Below, in pieces: positions 2,432-46,769 of a stretch of DNA of 52,727 bases. Under the pieces are notes generated by a model. The model was not told the DNA's origin. It ran no database searches and worked only from the letters and a program-made list of their open reading frames with translations. The DNA is from Boseongicola sp. SB0665_bin_10 (lineage in GTDB: Bacteria > Pseudomonadota > Alphaproteobacteria > Rhodobacterales > Rhodobacteraceae). The stretch's first letter is position 1, and the number at the start of each line of letters is the position of its first letter. The position numbers were made by a program, and so were the translations under genes. Location: assembly GCA_009838075.1 (NCBI GenBank), contig VXSG01000025.1:1-52727 (forward strand). The letters are read 5' to 3'.

Positions 2432-5227
2432 TCAATGCGCCTCGGCCCAGTTCCTGCCCTGGCCGGCGTCCACGATCAGCGGGACATCGAGATGGACCGC
2501 CGGGTCGGCAGCGCCCTCCATGACGGCACGCGCAATTCCGATCAGGTCGTCGACGGCTGGGTCTTCGACCTCGAACAGGAGTTCGTCGTGCACCTGCAGA
2601 AGCATCCTTGCGGGAAGCTTGGCGATGGCATCCGGCATCCTGATCATTGCGCGACGAATGATGTCCGCGGCCGTGCCCTGGATGGGCGCGTTGATGGCGG
2701 CGCGTCTCGCGAACCCCGCGTGCGGACCGCGCTTGTTTATTTCCGGCGTGTTGATGCGGCGACCGAAGAGCGTCTCGACATATTCGTGCTTCTTGGCGAA
2801 GACGACCGTTTCGTCCATGTAGTCGCGTATTCCCGGAAATCGCTCGAAGTAACGATCGATGAATCCCTGCGCCTCAGCCCGCGGAATGCGGAGATTCCGC
2901 GCCAGGCCAAAGCCGGAAATCCCGTAGATCACGCCAAAGTTGATCGCCTTGGCCTGCCGCCTCACGTCAGGGGTCATCGCGTCCAGAGGTACGCCGAACA
3001 TCTCCGAGGCCGTGGTCGCATGGATGTCCTGCCCGTCCCGAAAGGCCTCCTTCAGCGCCTCGATCCCGGCGACATGGGCAAGAATGCGCAGTTCGATCTG
3101 CGAGTAGTCGAGACTGACAAGGCTCTGTCCCTCCTCGGCCACGAACGCTTCGCGGATCCGGCGACCCTCCTCGGTGCGCACCGGGATGTTCTGGAGATTG
3201 GGATCGGTCGAAGCAAGGCGTCCCGTGTTGGCCCCCGCGATCGAGTAGGACGTGTGAACGCGGCCGGTGTCCGGATTCACGTGATCCTGCAGCGAGTCGG
3301 TATATGTCGATTTCAGCTTCTGGAGCTGCCGCCAGTCCAGGACCCGGCCGGGCAGTTCGTGCTCGGTCGCAAGATCTTCGAGCACGTCCGCGGGCGTGGC
3401 GTATTTTCCGGTCTTGCCCTTCTTGCCCCCGGCCACGCCCATCCGGTCAAAGAGGATGTCGCCCACTTGGCTGGGGCTGCCAACATTGAACTTCGTGCCG
3501 GCAAGCGCGTGAATTGCGTCCTCGAGTTCCGCCATTTTCTGCGCGAACGTGTTCGACATGCGTGCAAGCGTGCCGGAATCCACCTTGATGCCGCGCATTT
3601 CCATCTGGGCAAGGACCGGAACCAGCGGCCGCTCCAGCGTCTCGTAGACGGTCGCAACCTTCTTCCTGTGCAGTTCGGGCCTGAACAACTGCCAGAGCCT
3701 AAGCGTTATGTCGGCGTCCTCGGACGCATACTTGACCGCCTCTTCGATCGGGACCTTGTCAAAGGTGATCTGGCTCTTGCCGGTGCCCAGAAGCGACTTG
3801 ATCTCGATCGGTCGGTGGTTGAGGTAGCGCTCGGAGAGCGTGTCCATGCCGTGACCGTGAAGGCCGGCATTCATGGCATAGGACATCAGGAGCGTGTCGT
3901 CGAAGGGGGCAATCCGCACTCCATGGCGCGCGAGGATCTTCGCGTCGTATTTCAGGTTTTGCCCGATCTTGAGAATGGCGGGATCTTCAAGGATCGGCTT
4001 CAGGATTCCGAGCGCGTCCTCCGCTCTCATCTGGCCTTCGGCAAGCTCTCCGGTTTCAAAGAGGTCTTCCCCGGCCGATGCCTTGTGGATCAGTGGAAGG
4101 TAGCATGCCTTGCCCGGCCTGACCGCAAGCGAGATGCCCACGAGTTCAGCCCGCATCTCGTCAAGGCTGGTCGTCTCGGTGTCGATCGCGAGGCGGCCCA
4201 AGGCTCGTGCATCGGCGACCCAGGCATCGAGCGCCGCGGCGTCGCTGATCCGCACATATCCGTCGTGGTCAAAGGCCTGCGCATCCGGTGCCCGGTCTTC
4301 CTCTTTCGTGGTGGCGGTTTCCTGCGCGGCCGGTACCTCCCGTCCCAACGCCTTGGCCACCCGTCCGGTAATGGTTCGGAATTCCATGGATGCCAGGAAG
4401 GCCAGAAGGTCGTCGGCCACGGGTTCCCTGACCTCCAGGGATTCCAGGGAACAGGGCAGGTCCATGTCCTGAACGAGCGTTACCAGCTTGCGCGACAGGA
4501 GGATCTGCTCCTTGTGGTCGACAAGTGTCTGGCGGCGCTTCTCCTGCTTGATCTCGCCTGCCCTTGAGAGAAGGGTGTCAAGATCGCCGAATTCATTGAT
4601 CAGGAGTGCGGCCGTCTTGACGCCGATTCCGGGTGCGCCGGGGATGTTGTCAACGCTGTCGCCAGCCAGTGACTGAACATCGATCACCTTGTCCGGACCG
4701 ACGCCGAACCTTTCCTCGACTCCCGCCGCGTCGATCCTGACGTTCTTCATGGCGTCATGCATTTCCACGCCATCTCCGACGAGTTGCATGAGATCCTTGT
4801 CGGAAGACACGATCGTGACGCGTCCGCCGGCTTCGCGGGCGGTGTTTGCGAGCGTGGCAATGATGTCGTCCGCCTCGAAGCCCTCTTCCTCGAGGCAGGC
4901 GATGTTGAAGGCACGGGTGGCTTCGCGCGTCAGCGGCATCTGGGGTCGCAGGTCCTCGGGCATTTCCTCGCGATTCGCCTTGTACAGTTCGTAGAGGTCG
5001 TTTCTGAACGTGTGCGAGCCCTTGTCGAAGACGACGGCCATGTGGGTCGGGGCGTCGGGACCCTTGTTGTCCTCCATCATCTTCCAGAGCATGTTGACAA
5101 AGCCCGAAACCGCTCCGACGGGCAGGCCGTCGGACCTTCTCGTGAGCGGCGGAAGCGCATGAAATGCACGGAAGACGAATGCGGATCCGTCAATCAGGCT
5201 GAGATGATGTCCCCTGCCGAATGCCAT
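2432..5227 (-). CDS. polA: DNA polymerase I
   Basis: 931 residues, normal length, with all three domains. The 5'-3' exonuclease covers about residues 1-295 (FEADDIIA at 117, SLAGDSVDNIPG at 187). The 3'-5' exonuclease has its catalytic acids in place (DTET at 349-352, NLKYD at 424, YASEDAD at 500), so proofreading should be active. The polymerase core has motif A DYSQIE at 707-712, motif B with AINFGVIYG at 761-769 (Phe, not the Tyr that relaxes dideoxynucleotide discrimination) and motif C HDE at 880-882. The enzyme processes Okazaki fragments and fills repair gaps. I chose the ATG at 5227 because GGAGAAAG precedes it and MAFGRGHHLSLIDGS matches the family start; the longer open frame to 5410 has no homology signal. 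Confidence 0.97.
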   Translation of the reverse strand: MAFGRGHHLSLIDGSAFVFRAFHALPPLTRRSDGLPVGAVSGFVNMLWKMMEDNKGPDAPTHMAVVFDKGSHTFRNDLYELYKANREEMPEDLRPQMPLTREATRAFNIACLEEEGFEADDIIATLANTAREAGGRVTIVSSDKDLMQLVGDGVEMHDAMKNVRIDAAGVEERFGVGPDKVIDVQSLAGDSVDNIPGAPGIGVKTAALLINEFGDLDTLLSRAGEIKQEKRRQTLVDHKEQILLSRKLVTLVQDMDLPCSLESLEVREPVADDLLAFLASMEFRTITGRVAKALGREVPAAQETATTKEEDRAPDAQAFDHDGYVRISDAAALDAWVADARALGRLAIDTETTSLDEMRAELVGISLAVRPGKACYLPLIHKASAGEDLFETGELAEGQMRAEDALGILKPILEDPAILKIGQNLKYDAKILARHGVRIAPFDDTLLMSYAMNAGLHGHGMDTLSERYLNHRPIEIKSLLGTGKSQITFDKVPIEEAVKYASEDADITLRLWQLFRPELHRKKVATVYETLERPLVPVLAQMEMRGIKVDSGTLARMSNTFAQKMAELEDAIHALAGTKFNVGSPSQVGDILFDRMGVAGGKKGKTGKYATPADVLEDLATEHELPGRVLDWRQLQKLKSTYTDSLQDHVNPDTGRVHTSYSIAGANTGRLASTDPNLQNIPVRTEEGRRIREAFVAEEGQSLVSLDYSQIELRILAHVAGIEALKEAFRDGQDIHATTASEMFGVPLDAMTPDVRRQAKAINFGVIYGISGFGLARNLRIPRAEAQGFIDRYFERFPGIRDYMDETVVFAKKHEYVETLFGRRINTPEINKRGPHAGFARRAAINAPIQGTAADIIRRAMIRMPDAIAKLPARMLLQVHDELLFEVEDPAVDDLIGIARAVMEGAADPAVHLDVPLIVDAGQGRNWAEAH

Positions 5228-5538
5228 GCCTTTCTCCGGAGCGGTTTTCCGGAGTGATCGCACATTTGGCCGGGGCTCGCCAGAGGATGCGTCGCCGGAT
5301 TCCTTTCCGGTTGCGCCTTGGCGGACCAATGCCTTGATGCCCGGGCGAAACGGACGTGCCCGCGATCGTGGCATGTGCCGGCGCGCCGACGAAACTTGGT
5401 TGACGGCCATCGGATCTCTGCATAAGTCCCCGAAGAATCAAGACCGGTCAGTCCGGCAGGGAGTGAAGTTGAAAGGGGCCCGATGGGTCCCTTTCTCCTT
5501 TCCGCAAGCCGGTTCCCTTGCGGGCCTCGATACGGCAT
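5228..5538. other. Intergenic region upstream of polA
   Basis: No gene recognised. It should contain the polA promoter and leader and the end of the VOC transcript. The only clear structure is the inverted repeat at 5472-5494, listed separately. The open frames here are GC-rich shadows without family resemblance. Confidence 0.5.
5472..5494 (-). terminator. Candidate hairpin terminator of the VOC gene
   Basis: A 10-bp inverted repeat (AAAGGGGCCC, 3-nt spacer, GGGTCCCTTT) with one mismatch lies 45 nt downstream of the VOC stop. The stem is strong, but no clean U-run follows on the minus strand, so a factor-assisted terminator or transcript-end stabiliser is also possible. Confidence 0.4.
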
Positions 5539-6012
5539 TCAGCGTGAACCGAGTTCGGATGCGGTCTTGATAGAACCATCATGGGCCACGAGTTCGACCG
5601 TGTTGCCTTCGGGGTCCTCGGTGAACACTCCGCGCCAGCCGACCCAGCCAAAGGTCTCCACCCGGCACGGCAACCCCTGCGCCTCGTACCAGCTCATCAC
5701 GGCTTCCTGTTCCCCGAAGGGCAGGCTGAACGCCAGATGATGAAGCGAGGAGGACGCGCCCGTCGCTGGCGCCTCGCCTCTGGTCGGGTGCAGCTCGGGA
5801 CGCGAAGCATATTGCTTGTCGAAGAGCGCCAGAACCTGCGTGTGCCCGCCAAAGCCGTCCGCGATGCGAAAGAACACGATTCCCTCGGCAACGTTGCCCT
5901 CCATCTGCTCCAGTCCGAGCACATCGCCGTAGAAGGCTGTCATTCGCCCGAGATCGTCACAGCGGATGGCGATCTCGCCAAGGCCACGGACGTGAAAGCC
6001 GCGCTCGTTCAT
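5539..6012 (-). CDS. VOC (glyoxalase/dioxygenase fold) family protein
   Basis: 157 residues forming one vicinal-oxygen-chelate module pair. The first half begins RGLGEIAIRCDDLGRM...FYGDVLGL; the second contains SSSLHHLAFSLPF and ends with the typical FTEDPEGNTVELVAHD. The His in HHLAF and the Glu in NTVEL are the usual metal-ligand positions. The family covers glyoxalase I, fosfomycin-resistance enzymes and ring-cleavage dioxygenases; nothing here decides the substrate. ATG at 6012 with GGAGA 5 nt upstream. It lies upstream of polA in the same direction but 311 nt away, so it is probably a separate transcript. Confidence 0.85.
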   Translation of the reverse strand: MNERGFHVRGLGEIAIRCDDLGRMTAFYGDVLGLEQMEGNVAEGIVFFRIADGFGGHTQVLALFDKQYASRPELHPTRGEAPATGASSSLHHLAFSLPFGEQEAVMSWYEAQGLPCRVETFGWVGWRGVFTEDPEGNTVELVAHDGSIKTASELGSR

Positions 6013-6344
6013 GGTTGTCTCCGTCAGCAAATCGGGACCGTTCGGCAACGCTGTACCCGCCCGGCCCAAGGCAGACAAGACAGCCTGGTCGCTGGAGCAG
6101 GCCGCGTCGATCTCAGATTTCACGGCTGCGTGCCTCCAATTCGTGACGATGGAGACGAGCATCGAGGCATGATGCGAACGAGGTGCTCCACGCGTCGGAT
6201 TGGCGTGGCGAGCCAGCGCCTGCACCACGGCGGGATCAGTGCCAATTTCGTCCTTGATGTTGTCGCTTGTTTTTCTGCATCAACTACAGTTACAGAGCAC
6301 TGATGCGCGGCAATCCGGCCGCGTGTGTGCGTGGAAGGAACCTC
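6013..6344. other. Divergent promoter region, VOC gene / ialB
   Basis: About 330 nt between divergent genes. No coding sequence is recognised. An AT-richer stretch near 6250-6300 is the likely place for the rightward promoter of the IalB-type gene, but I cannot name firm -35/-10 boxes. Confidence 0.4.
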
Positions 6345-6929
6345 ATGATCAGAGATCTTGCGTGGGCGCTGGTTTTCATGGCGCTTCCCTTCGGGGCCAT
6401 CGCCCAGACCTCGTCAGCCGGGCAGGCCGATCCGAATGCCGGCTTGTCTCTCGGGGTGCCGGAAGGCGGGGCCGATGTCTATGTCAAGGACACGTTCAGT
6501 GATTGGAAGCTTCTCTGCATCAGGGTCGCGGACAGGACGGATCCCTGCGAACTCTACCAGCTTCTGCGTGATCAAGACGGGAATCCGGTGGCGGAAGTCA
6601 CCATGTTTGCCGATTCTGTCGACCCGCAAGTCGTGGCGCGGGCGACGATCGTGACACCGCTCGAGACCTTGCTCACGGAGAATCTCCGCCTTGCGGTGGA
6701 TGGCGGTGAGGCTCGCATCTACCGGTTTCTCTTTTGTCGCACGATTGGGTGTTTTTCGCAGCTTGGACTGACCGATGACGAGATCGGCCAGTTCCGGCAA
6801 GGGGCGGTTGCGACAGTGACAATCGTTCCTGCGGCGGCGCCTGGCAGGACCGTTGACCTTGATATGTCGTTGAGCGGGTTTACGGCCGGCTGGAACGCGC
6901 TGCTCGAATACGACAAGGCGGCCGAGTGA
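6345..6929 (+). CDS. Invasion-associated locus B (IalB) family exported protein
   Basis: 194 residues. The N-terminus is a Sec signal peptide (hydrophobic DLAWALVFMALPFGAIAQ, likely cut after Ala-Gln), and the mature part should be periplasmic or outer-membrane associated. Family markers are TFSDWKLLCIR near residue 50, paired cysteines (C...DPC, FLFCRTIGCF) and the C-terminal LSGFTAGWNAL. IalB was first described in Bartonella, but homologues are widespread in free-living alphaproteobacteria with no proven role, so the name does not imply virulence. ATG at 6345 with GGAAGGAA upstream. It is convergent with imuA, with only 6 nt between the two stop codons. Confidence 0.85.
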   Translation: MIRDLAWALVFMALPFGAIAQTSSAGQADPNAGLSLGVPEGGADVYVKDTFSDWKLLCIRVADRTDPCELYQLLRDQDGNPVAEVTMFADSVDPQVVARATIVTPLETLLTENLRLAVDGGEARIYRFLFCRTIGCFSQLGLTDDEIGQFRQGAVATVTIVPAAAPGRTVDLDMSLSGFTAGWNALLEYDKAAE

Positions 6930-6935
6930 TCTGCC

Positions 6936-7553
6936 TCAGGCCCTGGCCGGGTCGATTCTCGGCCTGGCCTTTCCGCCACTGAGGTGCCAGCGCTTCACCG
7001 GCTCCGTTCTCGCGCGGAGTCGATCAAGCTGCCAGGCTTCCTGCTTTCCTGTTCCATGAGCAGGCGTCATGCTCCACCGGGTTTCGACGCCTGGCGCCCC
7101 CCCGGTTCCCGGAGTCAGGATCAGGCCAAGGGGCACACAGGTTCCTTCCGTCGCCCCCGCTTCGGCCGCCAGTTGCAACCGCCTGACGGGAATGAGGCCG
7201 GGCGGTTCCGGCAGGTCGGCCACGACCAGGGGCACAAGTCCCGCGCGCAGCGTTTCCTCCATCGTCCAGAGCAGGTCCTCGGGCCGCTTCGGCCGGATGA
7301 AGATGAATCGCGAGGGGTCGGCGAGATGCAGCATTCCGTCGGGGTTCAGATGCACGGGCATCCACGCAGGGTGGATCCAGAAGACCGGTCCCTGCATTGC
7401 GCCTGCAGCCATCATTGCCAGTCGGCGCCTGGCAATGCCGCAGAACTCGTGCACGCGGCCCCGGTTCAGGGACAGGCCGCGAAGGAATGTCACTTCGGAC
7501 GCGGTGTGGCGCCGGTGGCTTTTCCGGACCAGGAGGTGGGCAGCATCAGGCAT
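6936..7553 (-). CDS. imuA: ImuA-type translesion synthesis accessory protein (orphan, SOS-controlled)
   Basis: 205 residues resembling the short alphaproteobacterial ImuA/SulA-like RecA-fold family: VHEFCG at 34, a GPVFWIHPAW block, RPEDLLWTMEETLRAGLVPLVVADL and PVRRLQLAAEAG. In bacteria with the ImuA-ImuB-DnaE2 mutasome, ImuA supports error-prone bypass after DNA damage. The identification is reinforced by a GTTC-N7-GTTC LexA operator 18 nt upstream of the start. No imuB or dnaE2 lies next to it: the following gene is on the other strand. No good Shine-Dalgarno precedes the ATG at 7553. A C-terminal basic tail (GGKARPRIDPARA) ends the protein. Some members are annotated only as hypothetical, so the exact role is inferred. 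Confidence 0.7.
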   Translation of the reverse strand: MPDAAHLLVRKSHRRHTASEVTFLRGLSLNRGRVHEFCGIARRRLAMMAAGAMQGPVFWIHPAWMPVHLNPDGMLHLADPSRFIFIRPKRPEDLLWTMEETLRAGLVPLVVADLPEPPGLIPVRRLQLAAEAGATEGTCVPLGLILTPGTGGAPGVETRWSMTPAHGTGKQEAWQLDRLRARTEPVKRWHLSGGKARPRIDPARA

Positions 7554-8915: not shown

Positions 8916-9571
8916 AGCCAGATTACCCGGCTTCCCGCCTCGTCGTTGCACAGGTAGGGCACCTGGTCCGGGGCGTCGGTGCGTGGAAGGTGGCGCTGAA
9001 GTTCCGTCAAGACGAGCCGGGTGACAAAGGGCAGGTTAAGTTCGCGGGCCCGGTCGACCCGCACCCATTGAACATGACTGAGCTCGGATTCGGCCCTGGA
9101 GAAGTCATCGGCATCGAACCGAAGTGCCGCCGCGTCGGCCAGGAAGAATCGCGCATCGTAGCGGCGCGACAGGCCAGGAGGCGTAAGGGCGCGAAAAAAG
9201 AATCTGAGTGCGCCGGCATCAGGCAGAAGGCCTCGCTCTGCAAAGCCGCGCCACGGCTCGGGCGGGTTCGGCCAGTTGCCCGTGCGTCCCAGGCACTGGC
9301 CGGTTTCCTCCCAGAGTTCGCGAATCGCGGCGGCGGCGAACCGGTCGGAATCCGTCGCCGTCGTTTCGGTCAGCAACCTCCCTTTGCAGGCCGGGTCGAG
9401 GCCGGGGCACGGCACGGTTTCGTCGGTCTCGTCGACGGCACCGCCCGGAAAGACGAACTTTTCGGGCATGAAGGCCGCGGCTTTGCCGCGTTGTCCCATC
9501 AGGATCCGGGGCGCGTCCTTGGGGTCCCTGACGAGGATGACGGTCGCCGCATCTTGGATTGGAACGGACAT
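8912..9571 (-). CDS. Nudix hydrolase with a split Nudix box (NUDT19-like)
   Basis: 219 residues. The Nudix motif is present but interrupted: KFVFPGGAVDE near residue 38 is followed by about 35 residues before AAIRELWEETG. An insertion inside the box is a known feature of the NUDT19/NUDT8-like subgroup, whose members act on CoA derivatives; that substrate is inference here. The metal-binding REXXEE core is intact (RELWEE). The start at 9571 lies 10 nt after the metG stop, so the gene is probably cotranscribed with metG. Confidence 0.85.
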   Translation of the reverse strand: MSVPIQDAATVILVRDPKDAPRILMGQRGKAAAFMPEKFVFPGGAVDETDETVPCPGLDPACKGRLLTETTATDSDRFAAAAIRELWEETGQCLGRTGNWPNPPEPWRGFAERGLLPDAGALRFFFRALTPPGLSRRYDARFFLADAAALRFDADDFSRAESELSHVQWVRVDRARELNLPFVTRLVLTELQRHLPRTDAPDQVPYLCNDEAGSRVIWL

Positions 9572-9581
9572 TTCGGGCAGT

Positions 9582-11300
9582 TCAGTCCCGCGATCCGGCA
9601 AATTGCGCCCGCCACGCTTCCCGTTCGTCGTCAGTGATCTTGCGGAAGAGCATGTCCGGAACGTCAATGGCGTGTCCCGGCTTAAGCACTTCCAGCGCGT
9701 CACCCATGTCCGATGGCCATGCGGTGTCGGACGTGTTCATCGCGTCTAGCATTCGAGCCGACGCGTCCGGAATGAACGGGGCGGAGATTACCGCATAGAT
9801 GCGGATCAGGTTGAGCGCGAGGCGAACGGCGACCGCCGCGCGGTCCGGATCCTTGCCGTAGGCGGTCCATGGGGCGGCAGCCTGCAGGTACTCGTTTCCG
9901 GCTGCCCAGAGCGCGCGCAGTTCAGCGGCAGATTTTCGAATCTCGATAGCTTCCATATGGGTCTCGTAAGCCTTGAGGCCCCCTTCGAGGCGCAGGATCA
10001 GGGCCTCTTCGCCTGGCCCCGGCGTCCCGCCGGACGGAACGGTGCCGCCAAAGCGCGACCTGCAGAACTTGGTCACCCGGCTCACGAAGTTGCCGAGAAC
10101 GTCAGCCAGATCCTTGTTCACGCTCGCCTGGAAGTTGTCCCAGGTGAATTCGCTGTCCGAGCTTTCGGGTGCATGGCTCAGGAGCCACCAGCGCCAGTAG
10201 TCGGCCGGAAGGATGTCAAGCGCCTGATCCATGAAGACGCCGCGGCCGAGTGAGGTCGAGAACTGTCCGCCGTCGTAGTTCAGGTAGTTGAACGACTTGA
10301 TGTAGTCCACAAGTTTCCAGGGCTCGCCCGATCCTATGATCGTCGCCGGGAAGCTGAGAGTGTGGAAGGGCACGTTGTCCTTGCCCATGAACTGGACATA
10401 GCGGACATCGTCCGCGCCCTTGTCAGTGCGCCACCATCGCTCCCACTCCGCGTCCTCGGCCCCGCGCCCGTCAGTCCACTCCTTGGCGCACGCGATGTAC
10501 TCGATCGGCGCATCGAACCAGACATAGAAGACCTTGCCTTCCATGCCCGGCCAGGGCTTGTCACCACGCATTACCGGAACGCCCCAGTCGAGATCGCGGG
10601 TGATGCCCCGATCCTGCAGGCCGTCGCCGTCATCCAGCCACTTCCGGGCGATCGAGGTGGTCAGAATCGGCCAGTCGATCTTGCTGTCGATCCAGTCAGA
10701 AAGCTGCTGCCGCAGGTTGCGCTGCTTGAGATAGAGGTGCTTGGTTTCCCGCATCTCCAGGTCGGTCGAGCCGGAAATCGCCGAACGCGGCTCAATGAGG
10801 TCGATCGGGTCGAGCTGCTTGGTGCAGTTTTCGCACTGGTCCCCGCGCGCGCGTTCATATCCGCATTCGGGGCAGGTGCCTTCGACATACCGGTCGGGCA
10901 GGAATCGGCCGTCCGTTCCGGAATAAAGCTGGTTCTCGGTGACTTCCTCGATCAGACCGGCCTCTGCGAGCCGACCCGCGAGATGCTGCGTAAGCCGGTG
11001 GTTTTGCGCGCTTGACGACCGGCCGTACTTGTCGAACGAGAGACCGAAACCGTCCGCGAGATCCTTCTGGACGGCCCACATTTCCGCGCAATACTCGGCA
11101 ACGGGCTTGCCCGCCCGGTCCGCCGCGAGCTCCGCGGGAGTGCCATGCTCGTCGGTCGCGCAGAGGAAGAGGACTTCGTGTCCCCGGGCGCGCATGTAGC
11201 GGGCATACAGGTCCGCGGGAAGCTGTGAACCGACAAGATTGCCAAGATGCTTGATCCCGTTGATGTAGGGAATGGCGCTGGTGATGAGAATGCGGTCCAT
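9582..11300 (-). CDS. metG: Methionyl-tRNA synthetase
   Basis: 572 residues. Class I aminoacyl-tRNA synthetase charging initiator and elongator tRNA-Met. Visible parts are the HIGH-type signature HLGN at residue 18, the zinc knuckle [17 protein letters not shown] near 143-159, the catalytic domain ([11 protein letters not shown]) and an anticodon-binding helical domain (residues ~400-555). There is no C-terminal dimerisation EMAP domain. The KMSKS loop reads QFSTSLGRG: the KFSTS form is usual in this clade, and here the leading Lys is Gln as well. Otherwise the protein looks intact and is surely essential. The Nudix gene follows 10 nt downstream. Confidence 0.96.
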
Positions 11301-11446
11301 CGGGTGGTTCCTTCGGTTCGAAGCGCTCTTTAGCCCAGCCCCAAGCGGGCGTCACCCCATGTTCCGTGATCGTGACGCCGGACATGGAGATGGTGCCTGG
11401 CGCTGCGGCCAGAGGTGCCGCGACCGAACGCGTGCTGCCACTCCGC

Positions 11447-11941
11447 TTCGCGATTTCTTGCGCAAGGTCGGGCCAAGGTGAGGCGCAGGATGAAAGTCGC
11501 GGATCATCCGAATGCTCGCCGGATTTCCGATCCCTGCGGCCCCGTCGAGCGGCGCGCTGCCGCGCCGGTTGTCTGGCACGACGTGGTGTTGGTCGAAGAG
11601 GCCGAGCTCGAGCGTGCGCGACCAGATGGCGCGACGAAAATGGCATCCGTCCATCTCGCGGCCTTCGGTCGGCGGGAGCGGACCGGCCGCCGTGCGACCA
11701 AGCGTCGCGATGTTCTTCTCGAAAGCAAGCGCGATGGCGCAGTGACTGCAGATGATCCCGATTTCGATCTGTCCAGCGCACCGGGTCGGACCTCGGGCGG
11801 GGCGCAGGAGATGTTCGTCGAAGAGACCGTGCCGTCGTCCATCGTGAAGATGCCAGTGGCGGATTCCATGTTGCTTGCTTCGCCGAGGACCTTGTCGGTC
11901 GACTGCGCACAAACATCGACGGACGTCACTCCGGCCATCAG
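11447..11941 (-). pseudogene. Decayed gene, family not firmly identified
   Basis: The 709 nt between metG and the GST gene hold no intact gene. On the minus strand one frame (about 11941-11775) reads naturally (AGVTSVDVCAQSTDKVLGE, then ATGIFTMDDGTVSSTNISC) and then turns to Arg/Ser-rich nonsense. A second frame picks up (IEIGIICSHCAIALAFEKN, LELGLFDQHHVVPDNRRG, IGNPASIRMIRDFHPAP). This is what a frameshifted remnant looks like. The first block is reminiscent of the C-terminal sheet of Gfo/Idh oxidoreductases, but that is a weak impression. No good start or ribosome-binding site is visible. Confidence 0.35.
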
Positions 11942-12009
11942 TCACGGCGCCATGTCGCGGCCATGCGTGCCCGCCTTGACCATCGGCATTGGCGTGGCCT
12001 CATTGCGGT

Positions 12010-12648
12010 TCAGGGCAGGGGGATGTCGCTCACGTGCCTTGGAATCTGGTAGCCGCGCTGCACGGCGGGCCGCCCGGCAATGCACACGTACCAGTCCCGA
12101 ACGTTGGAAAATTCGTGCAGGTCGATTGCCTGCCATTCGAAGCGGGAAACCCATGGCCAGGTGGCCATGTCAGTGACCGAATACGCGCCGCGGCCTGCGC
12201 CCGCGATGTAGTCGCGCCCTTCGAGCCGCTTGTCGAGAACGCCGTAGAGGCGCCTTGTCTCCTTCAGGTAGCGTTCTTCCGCGTAGGCGGACTTGCCTGC
12301 GTTGAACTTCACGAAGTGGTGGACCTGTCCGAACATCGGACCGACGCCGCCCATCTGCCACATGAGCCATTCGATCGCCGGCCAGCGCTCGTCGCCCCTT
12401 GGCAGGAACCGGCCGAACTTTTCGGCGAGGTAGAGCATGATCGCTCCGGACTCCATCATCTGGACACCGGTGTCATGGTCGACGATGGCCGGAATGCGGT
12501 TGTTGGGGGCGACACTCAGGAATTCGGGCGCGAATTGCTCGTCCTTCGAGATGTCGATGGCGTGCACGGTGTAGTCGATGCCAAGCTCTTCGAGCATGAT
12601 CGAGACCTTGCGGCCGTTCGGGGTCGTCCAGGTATAGAGGTCGATCAC
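12010..12648 (-). CDS. Glutathione S-transferase family protein (Nu/YfcG-like)
   Basis: 212 residues with the N-terminal thioredoxin-like domain (DLYTWTTPNGRKVSIMLEEL) and a C-terminal helical domain. The TPNG-K motif and the following NNRIPAIVDHD and ESGAIMLYLAEKFG are hallmarks of the YfcG/Nu-class GSTs, several of which act as glutathione-dependent disulfide oxidoreductases rather than classical transferases. Cytoplasmic. It is intact although it lies between two decayed genes; no partner gene indicates its substrate. Confidence 0.9.
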   Translation of the reverse strand: MIDLYTWTTPNGRKVSIMLEELGIDYTVHAIDISKDEQFAPEFLSVAPNNRIPAIVDHDTGVQMMESGAIMLYLAEKFGRFLPRGDERWPAIEWLMWQMGGVGPMFGQVHHFVKFNAGKSAYAEERYLKETRRLYGVLDKRLEGRDYIAGAGRGAYSVTDMATWPWVSRFEWQAIDLHEFSNVRDWYVCIAGRPAVQRGYQIPRHVSDIPLP

Positions 12649-12677
12649 GTGTCAGGCGTCCTTCAGAAGGGAAATGC

Positions 12678-12992
12678 ATGACTGACTTAACTGACCGTCC
12701 CGTCGCTGCAAGCCTTGATTGCACGGGTCGTCGAGGAGGCCGACGCCTGCGCCTCTCGTCCGCGCACATGACCACCCGGGGCGGCAAGATTCGCATTGCG
12801 GCCCCTTCGAGCAAGCCCGTCGAATTTGACCTGGACCATCTTGCCGTCAACGACATCTGCCTTTACGCCATTCGGGCGAGGGCAGACTGGCCGGCCTTCG
12901 GGCGAAGGCGTTCATGACCGGCAAGCGCGTCGACGCGAAGAGGGTTCGTATGCACCTTCCCGATGCGGGTGTTGGCGAACGCCTTTTGTCAT
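12678..12992 (+). pseudogene. Zinc-type alcohol dehydrogenase, C-terminal remnant with frameshift
   Basis: The frame 12678-12917 contains SLDCTGRRGG, HMTTRGGKIRIAAPSSKPVE and FDLDHLAVNDICLYAIR, matching the Rossmann-domain end and substrate-domain return of threonine-dehydrogenase-like medium-chain dehydrogenases. The match then shifts frame near 12900, and KAFMTGKRVDAKRVRMHLPDA (in two parts across 12899-12960) resembles the family's C-terminal segment. The N-terminal two thirds, including the zinc-binding catalytic domain, are missing. It cannot be functional. It lies just upstream of an intact DapA-like gene on the same strand and may once have shared a catabolic operon with it. Confidence 0.6.
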
Positions 12993-13040
12993 GTGCGACA
13001 GCAATTTCGGCGTGGCAGCCGCGGAATGGAGCGAAGGAAC

Positions 13041-13964
13041 ATGTCAAAGGCCAAACGAGGGATCTATGCGGCCGCCGTTTCGCCGTTTCGGGAGGACGGC
13101 ACCCTCCATGTCCAGAAGCTCGTCGCCTATTGCCAGCACCTGATCACGGCGGGAGGTTGCGATGGCGTGGCACCGACAGGAACGACGGGCGAGGGCAACT
13201 CGATTTCCCATCGCGAGCGGATGGCGCTTCCCGGCGCATTCGCCGAGGCGGGGTTCAATCCGAGCCGCGTGATCTTCGGAACCGGATCCTGCGCGACGCA
13301 TGATGCTGTCGATCTGACGTCGGCGGCGATTTCAGCCGGGTTCGTGAATGTGCTTGCCCTGCCGCCGTTCTACTACAAGGACCCCAGCGACGAGGGACTC
13401 TACGCCTATTTCTCGCAGCTTGTTGAGAAGGTCGGGGATGATCGCCTGCGGGTCTATCTCTACCACTTTCCGCAGATGTCGATGACGCCGGTCCCGGTCG
13501 ATGTCGTTGTTCGGCTGAGGCAAGCCTTCGGACCGGTGATTGCGGGCCTTAAGGACTCAAGTGGAGATCTGTCGCAATCGCTCGCCTTCGCTGAGGCCAC
13601 TGGCGGGGTCGATGCGGGCTTTGACGTCTATCCTTCGAGCGAGGCGTTTCTCTTCGATGGGCTGGCCGGTGGTTGCGCAGGCATCATCTCGGGATCGACG
13701 AACGCGTTCGGGGCCTACTCGCGCGCCGCGATGGCCGCGGCCGAAGGGCCCGATGGCGATGCGTTCGCGTTGGTGAAGGCAGCCCGCGCGGTGGCATCGA
13801 AATATCCGCTGATGGCGGCCATGAAACAGATGGAAGCCTGGCGCAGCGGTGACGACTGCTGGACACGCATGGCACCGCCGCTCGTGCCGCTGAGTGCCGG
13901 TCAGAAGGCCCGTCTCAAGGCGGATGTCGAGAACCTTGAGGCTCTGGCACAGGCGACCCCGTAA
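13041..13964 (+). CDS. DapA-family (dihydrodipicolinate synthase-like) lyase/aldolase
   Basis: 307 residues, a (beta/alpha)8 class I aldolase fold. The GTTGEGNS substrate loop is at 47-54, the catalytic Tyr in VYLYHFP near 141 and the Schiff-base Lys in AGLKDSSGD at 171. Key residues are present, so the enzyme should form a pyruvate (or keto-acid) imine. Whether it makes dihydrodipicolinate for lysine/DAP or cleaves a sugar acid cannot be read from sequence. The context of broken dehydrogenase, cupin and Gfo/Idh genes favours catabolism of a sugar or keto acid. Start at 13041 is supported by AAGGAA; the longer frame to 12963 overlaps the dehydrogenase remnant. Confidence 0.88.
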   Translation: MSKAKRGIYAAAVSPFREDGTLHVQKLVAYCQHLITAGGCDGVAPTGTTGEGNSISHRERMALPGAFAEAGFNPSRVIFGTGSCATHDAVDLTSAAISAGFVNVLALPPFYYKDPSDEGLYAYFSQLVEKVGDDRLRVYLYHFPQMSMTPVPVDVVVRLRQAFGPVIAGLKDSSGDLSQSLAFAEATGGVDAGFDVYPSSEAFLFDGLAGGCAGIISGSTNAFGAYSRAAMAAAEGPDGDAFALVKAARAVASKYPLMAAMKQMEAWRSGDDCWTRMAPPLVPLSAGQKARLKADVENLEALAQATP

Positions 13965-40889: not shown

Positions 40890-42101
40890 ATGGCGAGCGT
40901 CGATCTCGAAATTGCGAATTCCCTGCCAGTCTGGCGCAGGCCCGTCACGCTTCTGCTCCTGATGGCGGCGGCGATGCCCATCGCATTTGCCACATGGTCG
41001 GCGCTCCTGAACAACTTCGTGATCGAACGCGTGGGCTTCACCGGCGTGGAGATCGGCTGGCTGCACACGGTGCGTGAGATTCCCGGATTTCTTGCCGTGG
41101 GAGTGATCGCGGTCATCATCTTCATGCGCGAGCAGGTGCTTGCGATTGTCTCGCTCCTCATGCTGGGGGTGGCCACCGCGGTCACCGCCTGGTTCCCGAG
41201 CTTGGGCGGCCTCTTGATGGTCACGGTGATTTCGTCGATCGGGTTCCACTACTACGAAACCGTCAACCAGTCCCTGCAGCTTCAATGGCTGCCGAAGGAC
41301 CGTGCGCCGCAAGTGCTTGGGTGGCTGGTGGCGGTTGGGTCGGCTGCGTCGCTCCTGTCGTACGGGGCCGTGGTGGCCACCTGGGACCTCCTGAACCTCA
41401 CGTACAACACGGTCTACATGATCTCGGGCGGGGTCTGTGCCGTGATTGCCGCCTATTGCTGGATCGTGTTCCCGAAATTCGAGGGCAACCCGCAGGAGCG
41501 GCGCATGGTGTTGCGTCGCAGGTATTGGCTGTACTACGCATTGCAGTTCATGTCCGGGTCGCGACGGCAGGTGTTCCTGGTCTTCGCGGCCTTCATGATG
41601 GTCGAGCGCTTTGGTCTCAAGGTGCACGAGGTGACGGCGCTGTTCCTCGTCAACTACATTGCAAACATGCTTGCTGCGCCGCTCATGGGCAGGGCGCTGA
41701 CGCTCTGGGGCGAGCGCAACGTGCTGATCTTCGAGTATCTCGGCTTGACCGCCGTCTTCATGGCATATGCGGGAATCTACTTCTTTGAGTGGGGTGTCGT
41801 GCTTGCGGCCACATTGTACGTGGTCGACCATCTGTTCTTTGCACTTGCGTTTGCGCAGAAGACATACTTCCAGAAAATCGCGGATCCGGGCGACATCGCC
41901 CCGACCGCGGCAGTGGCCTTCACGATCAACCACGTTGCAGCGGTCTTCCTGCCCGCGCTTCTGGGATATCTTTGGATCGTGTCGCCAGGCATGGTCTTTG
42001 TCCTTGCCGCCATGATGGCCGTAGTCTCGCTGTGCCTGTCCTTCCTGATCCCGCGGCACCCCGTGAAAGGGTTCGAGACCGCGTTCGCGGTCTTTCGATG
42101 A
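40890..42101 (+). CDS. MFS transporter
   Basis: 403 residues and about 11-12 hydrophobic helices, an inner-membrane secondary transporter of the major facilitator superfamily. Features include LLNNFVIERVGFTGVEIGWLH in the first half and FGLKVHEVTALFLVNYIAN opening the second. It lacks the classic sugar-porter motifs and I cannot name a substrate. 101 nt after priA in the same direction; cotranscription is possible. Confidence 0.82.
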   Translation: MASVDLEIANSLPVWRRPVTLLLLMAAAMPIAFATWSALLNNFVIERVGFTGVEIGWLHTVREIPGFLAVGVIAVIIFMREQVLAIVSLLMLGVATAVTAWFPSLGGLLMVTVISSIGFHYYETVNQSLQLQWLPKDRAPQVLGWLVAVGSAASLLSYGAVVATWDLLNLTYNTVYMISGGVCAVIAAYCWIVFPKFEGNPQERRMVLRRRYWLYYALQFMSGSRRQVFLVFAAFMMVERFGLKVHEVTALFLVNYIANMLAAPLMGRALTLWGERNVLIFEYLGLTAVFMAYAGIYFFEWGVVLAATLYVVDHLFFALAFAQKTYFQKIADPGDIAPTAAVAFTINHVAAVFLPALLGYLWIVSPGMVFVLAAMMAVVSLCLSFLIPRHPVKGFETAFAVFR

Positions 42102-43338: not shown

Positions 43339-44208
43339 ATGAAAACATGGACCGCACTGACGACGCTGGGAGACCGCGAGCGGGCCAAGGCCCTTGGGAG
43401 AGCCCTCGAAACGCTTGACCCCGAACCTACTGGAATCGGCGTCATCATGCTCGAAGATGGCCGCGGGACCTGTGAAGTGGGCGGCTACTTTGCGGACGCG
43501 CCTGACGAGATTGCCTTGGCGCTGCTTGCGGCGGCTCACGGCGCGGCCGAGTTCACGGTCTCGAAACTGCCCGACGTCGACTGGGTTGCCCGTGTGCGGC
43601 GTGAACTGGCCCCGGTGGATGCAGGTCGCTTTCGCGTCATTTGTGGAAGTGGCATCGAGACCGTGCCCGAAGGTCGAATCCTGATCCGGATCCAGTCGTC
43701 GATGGCATTCGGAACCGGACATCATGGCACGACGCTGGGATGCCTGAAAGCCATGGACAGGCTGGCCGGGAACGGCGCGATCATTCGAAAGGTGGCGGAC
43801 ATCGGTTGCGGGTCCGCCGTACTTGCAATGGCGGCTCAACTTGCCTGCGGGGCGGAAGTGCTGGCCTCCGATGTTGATCCGGTCGCCATCGAGGTTGCGC
43901 GGGCCAATCTTTGCGCCAATGGCCTGGAGGACCGCGTGGAGCTTGTCGAGGCCTCGGGATTCGATGATGCGCGGCTGGCCGGACCGTTTGATCTCGTGCT
44001 GGCCAACATTCTCAGGGATCCGCTGCTTGGAATGGCCGAGGACATGGCGCAGGCATTGCGGGAAGGCGGACACGCGGTTCTGGGCGGGATCCTGACGGAG
44101 CAGGCGGACCCTGTGGCAAGGCGTTATGCATCCACGGGGTTCAGCCTGCGTCTGCGCGAGGACATCGGTGACTGGAGCACGCTGACCCTGACTCGAACCG
44201 GCTCCTGA
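43339..44208 (+). CDS. prmA: Ribosomal protein L11 methyltransferase
   Basis: 289 residues. N-terminal substrate domain, then a class I SAM-methyltransferase core: FGTGHHGTTLGCL at ~130, motif I as VADIGCGSAVLAMAAQL (the usual GSG is GSA), LASDVDPVAIEVARAN and LVLANILRDPLL, the PrmA equivalent of the NPPY motif. Trimethylates ribosomal protein L11; deletion is mild in E. coli. Homology starts at MKTWTALTTLG, so I use 43339. Its last 85 nt are overlapped on the other strand by the ccoS frame. Confidence 0.9.
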   Translation: MKTWTALTTLGDRERAKALGRALETLDPEPTGIGVIMLEDGRGTCEVGGYFADAPDEIALALLAAAHGAAEFTVSKLPDVDWVARVRRELAPVDAGRFRVICGSGIETVPEGRILIRIQSSMAFGTGHHGTTLGCLKAMDRLAGNGAIIRKVADIGCGSAVLAMAAQLACGAEVLASDVDPVAIEVARANLCANGLEDRVELVEASGFDDARLAGPFDLVLANILRDPLLGMAEDMAQALREGGHAVLGGILTEQADPVARRYASTGFSLRLREDIGDWSTLTLTRTGS

Positions 44209-44381
44209 AAATCCCTGTTCACGTGCCGGAGCCAGGTATCCGAGTCGTCATCCAACAGTGTTCTCGCCGCATCCCCTTCCGGGTCGTCATGCTGACCGCT
44301 TCCTGCCGTCCGGACAAATGTGACAAGCTCACCGAGTCCGATGATCAGCGAACGGGGGATGAGAACGACAGGAACATTCAT
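44124..44381 (-). CDS. ccoS: CcoS-like cbb3 oxidase maturation protein (possibly decaying)
   Basis: A frame starting at 44381 (MNVPVVLIPRSLIIGLGELV, then TFVRTAGSGQHDDPEGDAAR) matches CcoS, a ~50-60-residue single-pass membrane protein needed for cofactor insertion into cbb3-type cytochrome c oxidase. GGGAGA precedes the ATG. The frame does not stop at the normal place; it runs on to 85 residues, antisense to the last 85 nt of prmA. Substitutions in the helix (Arg in PRS, Glu in GLGELV) suggest relaxed selection. No ccoNOQP structural genes are in the window, so whether it still works is doubtful. Confidence 0.6.
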   Translation of the reverse strand: MNVPVVLIPRSLIIGLGELVTFVRTAGSGQHDDPEGDAARTLLDDDSDTWLRHVNRDFQEPVRVRVSVLQSPMSSRRRRLNPVDA

Positions 44382-44391
44382 TGGCGTCTCC

Positions 44392-44893
44392 CGCAGCCAG
44401 TGCCGCGGTGCCGCGGGCATCCGTGTCACCGGTCAGAAGGCAGACTGCCAGCCCATTCGCCTTGAGCGATTCGATTGACTTTCGTGCATCCGGCAATAGG
44501 CCCTCGGTGCTGGAAATCTCGTACGCCCGTCCGCCGACCGCGAACCCCATGTCGGAGCTTCCGCCAGCCCGGTCTCAGCGCCCGAAGCGCACGGATGTGC
44601 CGTTCGATGTGCCTTCGACCCCGCTTCCAGAGACTTCCCTGACATTCGAAACGTCTGCCGGGGCGGTCGTGGCGAGAGCATCAATGATTGTCCCGGATAG
44701 CGCTTGCTCCACGGTCCGGATGCAGCCGGCACGATGGACAATTGGCAGTGCAATCATGTGTGTCGGCGCCGCGCCGATGCGGCAGCGAAGCCCGGTGCGG
44801 CATCTGAGCGGCCACGGGTCGAATTGCCAGAGGTCGTTCTTCAACCCACATGGTGGCGCGTTGCCTGGAGGGCGCACAGTCCGGGGCCGTCAT
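44392..44893 (-). pseudogene. ccoI: ccoI/fixI copper P-type ATPase remnant, deleted and frameshifted
   Basis: Pieces in successive minus frames match one protein in order. First, a start-like MTAPDCAPS (44893). Next, VHRAGCIRTVEQALSG, the heavy-metal-associated domain with its first Cys changed to Arg. Joined directly to it is VSNVREVSGSGVEGTSNG, then SVRFGR, from the ATP-binding domain. Last, in a shifted frame, MGFAVGGRAYEISSTEGLLP and IESLKANGLAVCLLTGDT from the phosphatase/hinge region. All transmembrane helices, the CPC motif and the DKTG phosphorylation site are gone. A normal CcoI is over 700 residues. It lies between fnrL and ccoS. Confidence 0.75.
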
Positions 44894-45101
44894 GGCCAGC
44901 CTGAGAATTCAGCGCCCGGACGTAGGAATCGCCGGTCTCGGTGCAACGAACCGCGTACCGTCAAAGCGGAAGGCAAGGCTGCAGCTTTCGGCGACATGAG
45001 TGGCGCGACCGAGGGTCGCCTCCGCGACCCTGGACTCGACCGGATCGTCGGGTCCGAGAACGGCGAGCGCTACTGCATCTTCGGTGCCGCCCTGAACAAC
45101 G

Positions 45102-45824
45102 TTAGTTCGCGTTTCCGAGTTCCGCCTCAAGGCGCGACGTGTCCGGTATGATGATGCGTCTTGCCGTTTCCAGTTCGATGAGGCCGTCCTTGCGGAGTCT
45201 CGACATCTGGCGGCTGACAGTCTCGATGGTAAGGCCCAGATAGCTTGCCATCGCTTCGCGCGATAGAGGCAGGTCTATCCGGACCGGCTGATCGGCGTCT
45301 TCCGGCAATGCGGACCGGCGAACGACGAGCATCAGGAAGCTGACAATCTTCTCGCGCGCCGTCAGGCATCCGAGCAGCAGCATCCAGTCCCGGGCCGCAT
45401 CGAGCTCGTCGAACGCGATGTCCAGAAGCCGCTTCCTGATGCCCGACACCTTCTCGACCATATCCTCAAACGGTCTTCGCCTGAAGCAGCAGAGCGTCAG
45501 GTCGGTGACGGCGGAAATGTCGTGGTCGCAGGAGTCACGCCCCGGCCGACCGATGAAGTCCGACGGCAGGAGCATGCCGGTGATCTGCATTCTTCCGTCA
45601 ACGGTGGTTTTCGAGAGGGTCGCGACGCCGGACACGATCGAGGCGACGACATCCAGCTTGTCGCCTCGGACCACGACGGCCTGGCCTGCGGGGACCAACT
45701 TGTAGAACTTGATGGCGTTCAGCCTGTCGAATTCCTCGTCATTGCTTGCGGCGCAGATGGCTCGGTGTCTCACCGGGCAGTACTGGCAGTCCAATCTCAG
45801 ATCTTCGGAACGCGAAATCCTCAC
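45102..45824 (-). CDS. fnrL: FnrL-type oxygen-responsive Crp/Fnr regulator
   Basis: 240 residues. N-terminal cysteines C13, C16 and C24 (DCQYCPVRHRAICA) with C99 or C112/C113 can hold an oxygen-labile [4Fe-4S] cluster. The cyclic-nucleotide-binding-type sensor domain and dimer helix follow, and the helix-turn-helix ends in TIETVSRQMSRLRKDG, whose E-x-x-SR recognises TTGAT-type half sites. In Rhodobacter FnrL activates microaerobic and anaerobic genes including cbb3 oxidase. Here its neighbours ccoI/ccoS are broken or eroding, but the regulator itself is intact. Confidence 0.9.
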   Translation of the reverse strand: MRISRSEDLRLDCQYCPVRHRAICAASNDEEFDRLNAIKFYKLVPAGQAVVVRGDKLDVVASIVSGVATLSKTTVDGRMQITGMLLPSDFIGRPGRDSCDHDISAVTDLTLCCFRRRPFEDMVEKVSGIRKRLLDIAFDELDAARDWMLLLGCLTAREKIVSFLMLVVRRSALPEDADQPVRIDLPLSREAMASYLGLTIETVSRQMSRLRKDGLIELETARRIIIPDTSRLEAELGNAN

Positions 45825-46046: not shown

Positions 46047-46769
46047 TTACGGATCTGCCTCGGCGCGGTGTGCCGCGGCGAATTCCGACATGCTGTTGAA
46101 CCGGAAATCTGCATGCGGCATGCTTCCGGGGTCCAACGTTGCACCGAACCCGCCCTTGTCGTGTCGACGATATATCCAGCAATTCGCCAGTCCGAGTTCA
46201 TTTGCGGGGGCATGGTCATGAAACAGGCTTTCTGCCACGTGCAGGATCCGGGACTTGTCGAATCCCTGCCGGCCAAGCGTTTCGATCATGTAATCGAAGT
46301 TTCGTCGGGCTGGCTTGTACGAGCCGATGTCCTCCGCCGTGCAGACGTTGTCAAACTCGACGCGAAGCTTCTGGTTGCTGCCGGCAAAGCTGACGTTGTC
46401 CGTGTTGGTCAGGACGGCCAGCCTGTAGTGCTTCTTCAGGTATTGCAGCGCTTCCGCACTGTCCGGAAAGGCCGGCCAGCGCCCCACGGTCGCGCCGTAT
46501 GCCATGCACTCGTCCCAGGACACGGTGACGTTCCATTCCTCGGCGAGGCGCCGATAGACGACAGGCAGCAGATCGCGATACAGCTTTGACGGCGTCAGTC
46601 GCTGGATCGTGGATTCGTGAAATGCGTGGGCCTCGAGGATCTCGTCGCGGCCGAGCGCGTGGCCTGCGCGATCGGTCAGTGGCTTCAGTCCCTCGACGAT
46701 CCCCGTCTCCCAGTCAATGAGCGTGCCGTAGACGTCAAATGTAAGGACCTTGAATTCGCCGAGTTTCAA
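46047..46769 (-). CDS. HAD superfamily hydrolase, haloacid dehalogenase type II-like
   Basis: 240 residues. Nucleophile Asp12 in TFDVYGTLIDWETG, the motif II region LAVLTNTDN, the motif III Lys in SYKPARRNFDYM and the final block ILHVAESLFHDHAPANELG. The type II haloacid dehalogenase branch dechlorinates 2-haloacids, but many members act on other small phosphates or acids, so the substrate is open. The best start is TTG at 46769 with GGGGGAGAG just upstream; no ATG precedes the conserved region. Confidence 0.85.
   Translation of the reverse strand: MKLGEFKVLTFDVYGTLIDWETGIVEGLKPLTDRAGHALGRDEILEAHAFHESTIQRLTPSKLYRDLLPVVYRRLAEEWNVTVSWDECMAYGATVGRWPAFPDSAEALQYLKKHYRLAVLTNTDNVSFAGSNQKLRVEFDNVCTAEDIGSYKPARRNFDYMIETLGRQGFDKSRILHVAESLFHDHAPANELGLANCWIYRRHDKGGFGATLDPGSMPHADFRFNSMSEFAAAHRAEADP

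Follow-up and report, generated by a model that had tools for sequence, protein, structure and literature searches.

The stretch of DNA analysed here (the window, 52,727 nucleotides (nt)) is contig VXSG01000025.1 of the draft genome of Boseongicola sp. SB0665_bin_10, and it contains the remains of genes for a cbb3-type cytochrome oxidase. Between prmA and fnrL, the gene of the oxygen regulator FnrL, the minus strand carries scraps of cco genes. We are highly confident that this locus is what is left of a deleted, fnrL-linked ccoNOQP-ccoGHIS operon. Among the eight genus members examined (the source genome and seven congeners), the cco operon has been lost solely in the source genome. The original prediction, a relic of cbb3 assembly genes beside an intact fnrL, is borne out by synteny with the congeners, by the lack of ccoN and other cco DNA elsewhere in the genome and by neutral decay of the scraps.

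Remains of a deleted cco operon

The source genome (G000; the window is its contig C61) measures 4.80 Mb in 124 contigs and is 98.6% complete with 3.5% contamination. We compared it to seven congener genomes at the loci L063–L069, where the contigs are shorter in L064 and L069. In the six congener loci that span the site, fnrL-ccoNOQP-ccoGHIS-prmA lies between the same flanks. For example, in L063 fnrL (4307–5029) is followed by ccoN (5366–6985), ccoO, ccoQ, ccoP, ccoG (9058–10599), ccoH (10596–11054), ccoI (11051–13180) and ccoS (13177–13329), with prmA on the opposite strand (for ccoO, ccoQ and ccoP we assigned the names by eye, using position and sequence). The aligned congener copies of fnrL, ccoN, ccoH, ccoI and ccoS contain zero internal stops (the ccoN of L091 is cut by the contig end; the L063 copies are open). 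Both ccoN and ccoS are present in 7/7 congeners, with the G004 ccoN being a contig-end piece that scores below the cut-off.

The window shares flanks, order and sequence with the congener locus (L063–L068). The frames of the congener locus are open, whereas in the window about 7.4 kb is deleted and the remainder has decayed. The cco scraps occupy 44124–45103 of the minus strand. Read from fnrL (45824–45102) toward prmA they are ccoH, the 5′ part of ccoI, the middle of ccoI, a 31-nt ccoI piece and ccoS, which is the order of the intact operon. Position and order are hence those of the relatives' intact locus, as expected for a pseudogene relic. The features of the locus are:

43339–44208, plus strand: prmA, intact flank, in the same place in congeners (start codon picked by eye; comparisons run from 43345)
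44229–44381, minus strand: ccoS relic, 3 nt shorter through a deletion and without its stop codon; the open frame extends to 44124 and overlaps the 3′ end of prmA
44383–44413, minus strand: 31-nt ccoI piece, nt 1827–1857 (hinge), between deletions D3 and D4
44413–44710, minus strand: middle part of the ccoI relic, about nt 1398–1695, covering the nucleotide-binding domain and the first part of the hinge; a single new stop
44696–44710, minus strand: D2 junction, where ccoI has lost about 1.27 kb (blastn coordinates)
44697–44837, minus strand: 5′ part of the ccoI relic, nt 1–142, metal-binding domain; start codon lost, 1-nt deletion
44834–45103, minus strand: ccoH relic, matching nt 190–459 of the congener gene (459 nt); its own stop is missing and a single new in-frame stop has arisen
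45100–45104, minus strand: D1 junction, where nt 190 of ccoH follows directly on the fnrL stop codon
45102–45824, minus strand: fnrL, intact, 240 amino acids; 328.3 bits on NF045989 (equivalog cut-off 300)
46047–46769, minus strand: haloacid dehalogenase type II, intact flank beyond fnrL, in the same place in L063

We named the ccoH and ccoI pieces by DNA alignment to the congeners, because profile searches gave nothing useful. The frames of ccoH and of the metal-binding and ATP-binding parts of ccoI have no profile match in Pfam or NCBIfam, and the ccoI hinge frame alone gives weak HAD/P-type ATPase matches, all below cut-offs (best E 0.0031 in Pfam and 0.0014 in NCBIfam). The ccoS frame matches FixS in Pfam (E 3.7e-10) and scores 37.8 bits on TIGR00847 (curated cut-off 28.35). 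The profile check proposed with the original prediction therefore works for CcoS and yields weak matches or none for CcoI. At the DNA level, the ccoH relic is 85.6% identical to L067 over 270 alignment columns. Blastn against L063 gives E = 5.9e-93 for ccoH with the 5′ part of ccoI and 9.3e-78 for the ccoI middle part. The alignment places the relic blocks at about 45103–44696 and 44710–44412 with 77–85% identity, and a further block starting at 44398 or 44394 takes in ccoS and prmA. There are five collinear blocks each in L063 and L065–L068, four in L064 and three in L069. The 31-nt ccoI piece scores 29–39 in the seven congeners, and the best of 300 shuffles (one congener tested) scores 30; its identity is suggested mainly by collinearity. 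The DNA match to congener ccoI confirms the earlier claim that CcoI pieces lie in the right order on the minus strand. The ccoH relic had gone unnoticed.

None of the four ccoGHIS frames is intact at the locus: ccoG was not found, ccoH and ccoI are truncated and carry stops and frame changes, and ccoS lacks its stop. When translated directly in the congener frames, the ccoH relic and the ccoI middle part each contain a single stop. The latter also has a 1-nt deletion and a 1-nt insertion, which apparently compensate each other. The first Cys of the metal-binding CxxC is gone from the 5′ part of ccoI.

Four deletions account for the shortened locus. Together they removed ccoNOQPG along with much of ccoH and the greater part of ccoI, and the distance between fnrL and ccoS is 0.72 kb in the window versus 8.1 kb in congeners (L063, L066). 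The largest deletion, D1 (about 5.75 kb), took ccoN, ccoO, ccoQ, ccoP, ccoG and the 5′ end of ccoH. The FNR box TTGACATGGATCAA, which lies between fnrL and ccoN in 6/6 congeners scanned and is absent from the window, was removed with it. At the D2 breakpoint, a stretch of up to 15 nt in the window can be aligned with either side. D3 (132 nt) and D4 (268 nt) both lie within ccoI. The original prediction of one large deletion with frame changes is right about deletion and frame changes, but there are four deletions, stops and a lost ccoI start besides. The ribosome-binding site that it had assigned to the CcoS frame is a purine-rich stretch inherited from the 3′ end of ccoI. Its suggestion that copper delivery was being lost or had been lost while the regulator was kept is supported but understated, since ccoNOQP and the FNR-box promoter are gone too.

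A search of the whole genome for ccoNOQP, ccoG, ccoH and a second ccoI, as had been advised, found nothing beyond the relics. With the ccoN profile TIGR00780 and a limit of E ≤ 0.001, a single ccoN turns up in every one of the seven congeners but none in G000. The ccoNOQPG DNA of the congeners has no match anywhere in this draft assembly, in which the oxidase to be assembled is therefore not found. Outside the window, congener cco cluster DNA matches only 34 nt at C86. We rejected this match as a second ccoI because the gene around it encodes a CopA-like ATPase (CopA model score 628 bits, cut-off 1316).

A 403-amino-acid MFS-like protein is encoded at 40890–42101 of the window and also in L063, beyond prmA and msrA. 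Tried as a CcoA copper importer, it has no NCBIfam match at E ≤ 1e-5.

Decay of the relic and constraint on fnrL

We call a change private when the window departs from a base common to all congeners. Over the relic as a whole there are 9 silent and 49 non-silent private changes, compared to 61 and 53 among the congeners in the same columns (Fisher 1.3e-6). The ratio in the window is not significantly different from neutrality (p 0.097). Thus the pooled ccoHIS relic accumulates substitutions as a pseudogene should. Gene by gene, the contrast between window and congeners has p values of 0.0005 for ccoH, 6.9e-5 for ccoS and 0.06 for the 5′ part of ccoI.

For columns that are invariant among the congeners, codon positions 1–2 and position 3 were scored separately. 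At positions 1–2 the relic has changed in 49/444 columns and fnrL in 8/420 (p=2.5e-8). At position 3 the rates are alike: 11/115 in the relic and 8/120 in fnrL (p 0.48). The other intact flank, prmA, behaves like fnrL (compared with seven congeners, 13/476 at positions 1–2, p 5e-7 versus the relic, and 8/151 at position 3). Therefore the relic drifts whereas fnrL is constrained. Judged from these alignments, the substitution rate of the relic is indistinguishable from neutral. FnrL also retains Cys 13, 16, 24, 99, 112 and 113, which are invariant across the window and the seven congener copies. By analogy with FNR, we take four of these cysteines to hold the [4Fe-4S] cluster.

The relic has changed as much at positions 1–2 as at position 3, which suggests that the cco genes were lost early on the G000 branch. 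In a tree of fnrL and prmA, G000 groups with G003 and G005 at support 82, and G002 and G007 stand apart with support 100; without the prmA of G003 the supports for the two groupings are 64 and 100. Given this placement, the loss of cco is derived.

Some of these comparisons speak against selection on fnrL next to a drifting relic. Taken alone, the ccoI middle part tells little, as its silent to non-silent ratio cannot be told apart from that of the congeners (p 0.74), which change freely there too. The private changes of fnrL itself are 6 silent and 9 non-silent, and those of prmA 6 and 12; neutrality is rejected for neither (p 0.23 and 0.59). The constraint on fnrL therefore shows only by comparison with the relic.

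Retention of FnrL in the absence of the cco operon

In the G000 draft, at 98.6% completeness, the sole COX1-family gene is CtaD (675.3 bits, cut-off 670.75), and no cydA was found in G000 nor in any of the seven congeners. Contig C123 carries an intact run of narG, narH and narJ, all above cut-offs, in order with a narK-like transporter gene. The narG gene is above cut-off in G000 and in 6/7 congeners, and partial in G004. We searched G000 for exact matches to the palindrome TTGATNNNNATCAA and found three genome-wide, compared to zero in the reversed control. One of them, TTGATTCAGATCAA, lies between the narK-like gene and an ftrB-like regulator. This FNR box recurs about 2.9 kb upstream of narG in 4/4 congener contigs reaching that far.

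The four deletions stripped the operon of its FNR-box promoter, its oxidase genes and ccoG, and cut large parts out of ccoH and ccoI. These observations suggest the following scenario. The high-affinity oxidase would no longer be made, and oxygen would be respired with an aa3-type enzyme. FnrL was probably retained because it still activates other low-oxygen genes, above all narK-narGHJ with its conserved FNR box. FnrL could well have turned into a regulator that switches on nitrate respiration in a cell lacking a high-affinity oxidase, which would have given up the microaerobic step and would go from aa3 straight to nitrate, and D1 may have halted at the fnrL stop codon since fnrL was needed; we put this forward tentatively, a little short of calling it probable.

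Several points weigh against a role centred on nitrate. The narK-like gene scores 219.9 bits, below the model cut-off of 311.7. One of the three exact FNR sites falls inside the ftrB-like gene, therefore an exact match alone proves little. The narK-side box may also serve the divergent ftrB-like regulator. Among the other family members without ccoN (see below), narG is above cut-off only in G088, which has no FnrL match, and G061 keeps an FnrL above cut-off without narG.

The family-wide distribution comes from a sample of 150 genomes, each at least 95% complete, with G000 put in by design. A ccoN match at E ≤ 0.001 was found in 137/150 genomes (131/150 above cut-off) and an FnrL match in 138/150 (128/150 above cut-off). 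Of the 13 genomes without ccoN, nine have no FnrL match, two have one below cut-off (G083, G173) and two have one above cut-off (G000, G061). FnrL is thus mostly missing where ccoN is missing, and therefore the two usually go together. As a family-wide predictor of FnrL retention narG failed on G061 and G088. Nitrate reductase is a likely reason for keeping FnrL within the genus, and not a rule for the family.

Alternatively, FnrL may be kept for targets other than nitrate reductase, such as haem synthesis, aa3 repression and stress proteins. This explanation could coexist with a role in nitrate respiration, and we regard it as quite possible, if somewhat doubtful. In G061, which has no ccoN match and no narG, fnrL persists with a frame that we take for hemN as its immediate neighbour. 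In Dinoroseobacter, FnrL is reported to induce cbb3 and most denitrification operons, to mediate aa3 repression and to control haem and stress genes (PMC5398030). In G000, however, the clearest conserved FNR box is that of the narK-like gene, within a search that covered exact matches only.

A few observations were made along the way. G061 is a 2.4-Mb family member and a second case of FnrL without cbb3 (L122 9624–11779, G061:C294). At L099 8932–9155 (G000:C123 about 56930–57155) the narK-like gene and the gene of an FtrB-type CRP/FNR regulator (NF006901, 332 bits) are divergently oriented. The third exact FNR-type palindrome is at L096 1501 (G000:C44:24693). On the same contig, the frame at L100 5092–5520 contains a run of unknown bases as well as short tandem repeats (GSPGLRVS-like units). 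Two frames about 3 kb apart on G000:C7 (L072 5230–6768 and 8055–9950) share the same leader and the start of a solute-binding-like protein; they are either a partial duplication or a misassembly.

Alternative readings of the locus and comparison with known systems

Three further explanations concern the relic itself, and we consider each of them very improbable. First, a working cbb3 oxidase could be encoded by a divergent second cluster elsewhere, with the window locus being a dead spare copy. Some family members do have two ccoN above cut-off (e.g. G009, G013, G017), but ccoN yields no match in G000, CtaD is the only COX1-family gene, and the only ccoS match in the genome is the relic.

Second, a misjoined or error-ridden contig could hide an intact ccoNOQPGHIS. 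An intact cluster in an assembly gap is conceivable because the draft has 124 contigs and 3.5% contamination, and this counts against our interpretation. However, such an artefact would hardly produce four collinear deletions plus stops, with no cco DNA elsewhere in the assembly. Over all congener-invariant columns the relic has changed at 60/559, compared to 16/540 in fnrL and 21/627 in prmA on either side, an excess that is unlike assembly error. Divergence at position 3 is alike in the relic and the intact genes, as real descent would give. Neither outcome that could have overturned the original prediction, no similarity to CcoI or an assembly error, occurred; the DNA matches ccoI and ccoS.

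Third, the ccoS frame could still be translated and have acquired a new role, a notion that has hardly any appeal for us. Counted from a GTG, the frame stays open for 101 codons, or for 85 if the ATG at 44381 is taken as the start; it scores above the family cut-off, and its sole small deletion is 3 nt long. The substitution pattern and the lost stop outweigh the open frame and the score: private substitutions in ccoS are 12 non-silent and 1 silent, compared to 2 and 13 pooled over the congeners, and without the stop codon a run-on tail overlies the 3′ end of prmA. Hence, ccoS is a relic too. We know of no role for CcoS outside cbb3 assembly, and cbb3 assembly would have no substrate in G000.

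We therefore return to a deleted cco operon next to a retained FnrL. The loss of an oxidase is usually evidenced by plain absence. Here, one can see the breakpoints, the decay and a constrained regulator beside scraps that evolve neutrally, and seven congeners serve as reference. Two functions of FnrL, in cbb3 and in nitrate or denitrification genes, are paired in the papers cited here and separated in this genome. We predict an aa3-only organism with poor oxygen affinity and an FnrL-dependent nitrate reductase.

The loss of cbb3 oxidase in Rhodobacteraceae is already known; as far as our searches go, a fossil with the selected regulator alongside is less usual. We found no account of such a cco relic in the open-licence literature searched, and the accessible portion of PMC9531527 has no cbb3 content. 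In the CHUG group of Roseobacter, aa3 is present in all members and cbb3 with upstream FnrL only in some (M1M2), and oxygen affinity differs accordingly (PMC9426536). The portion of that paper available mentions no operon relic, whereas the window keeps relics and fnrL. Six pelagic Roseobacter clusters, marine Rhodobacteraceae lineages, likewise lack high-affinity oxidases, both cbb3 and bd, with two species excepted for cbb3 (PMC12661815). In contrast to these absences, which are established by gene content, G000 is one fossil case in a genus of keepers, and its nitrate reductase is kept. A parallel in regulation is FnrP of Paracoccus denitrificans, which is reported to act on cco and nar (PMC4771820). 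There, one FNR-type sensor serves both the high-affinity oxidase and nitrate reductase, whereas in G000 only the nitrate branch would remain.

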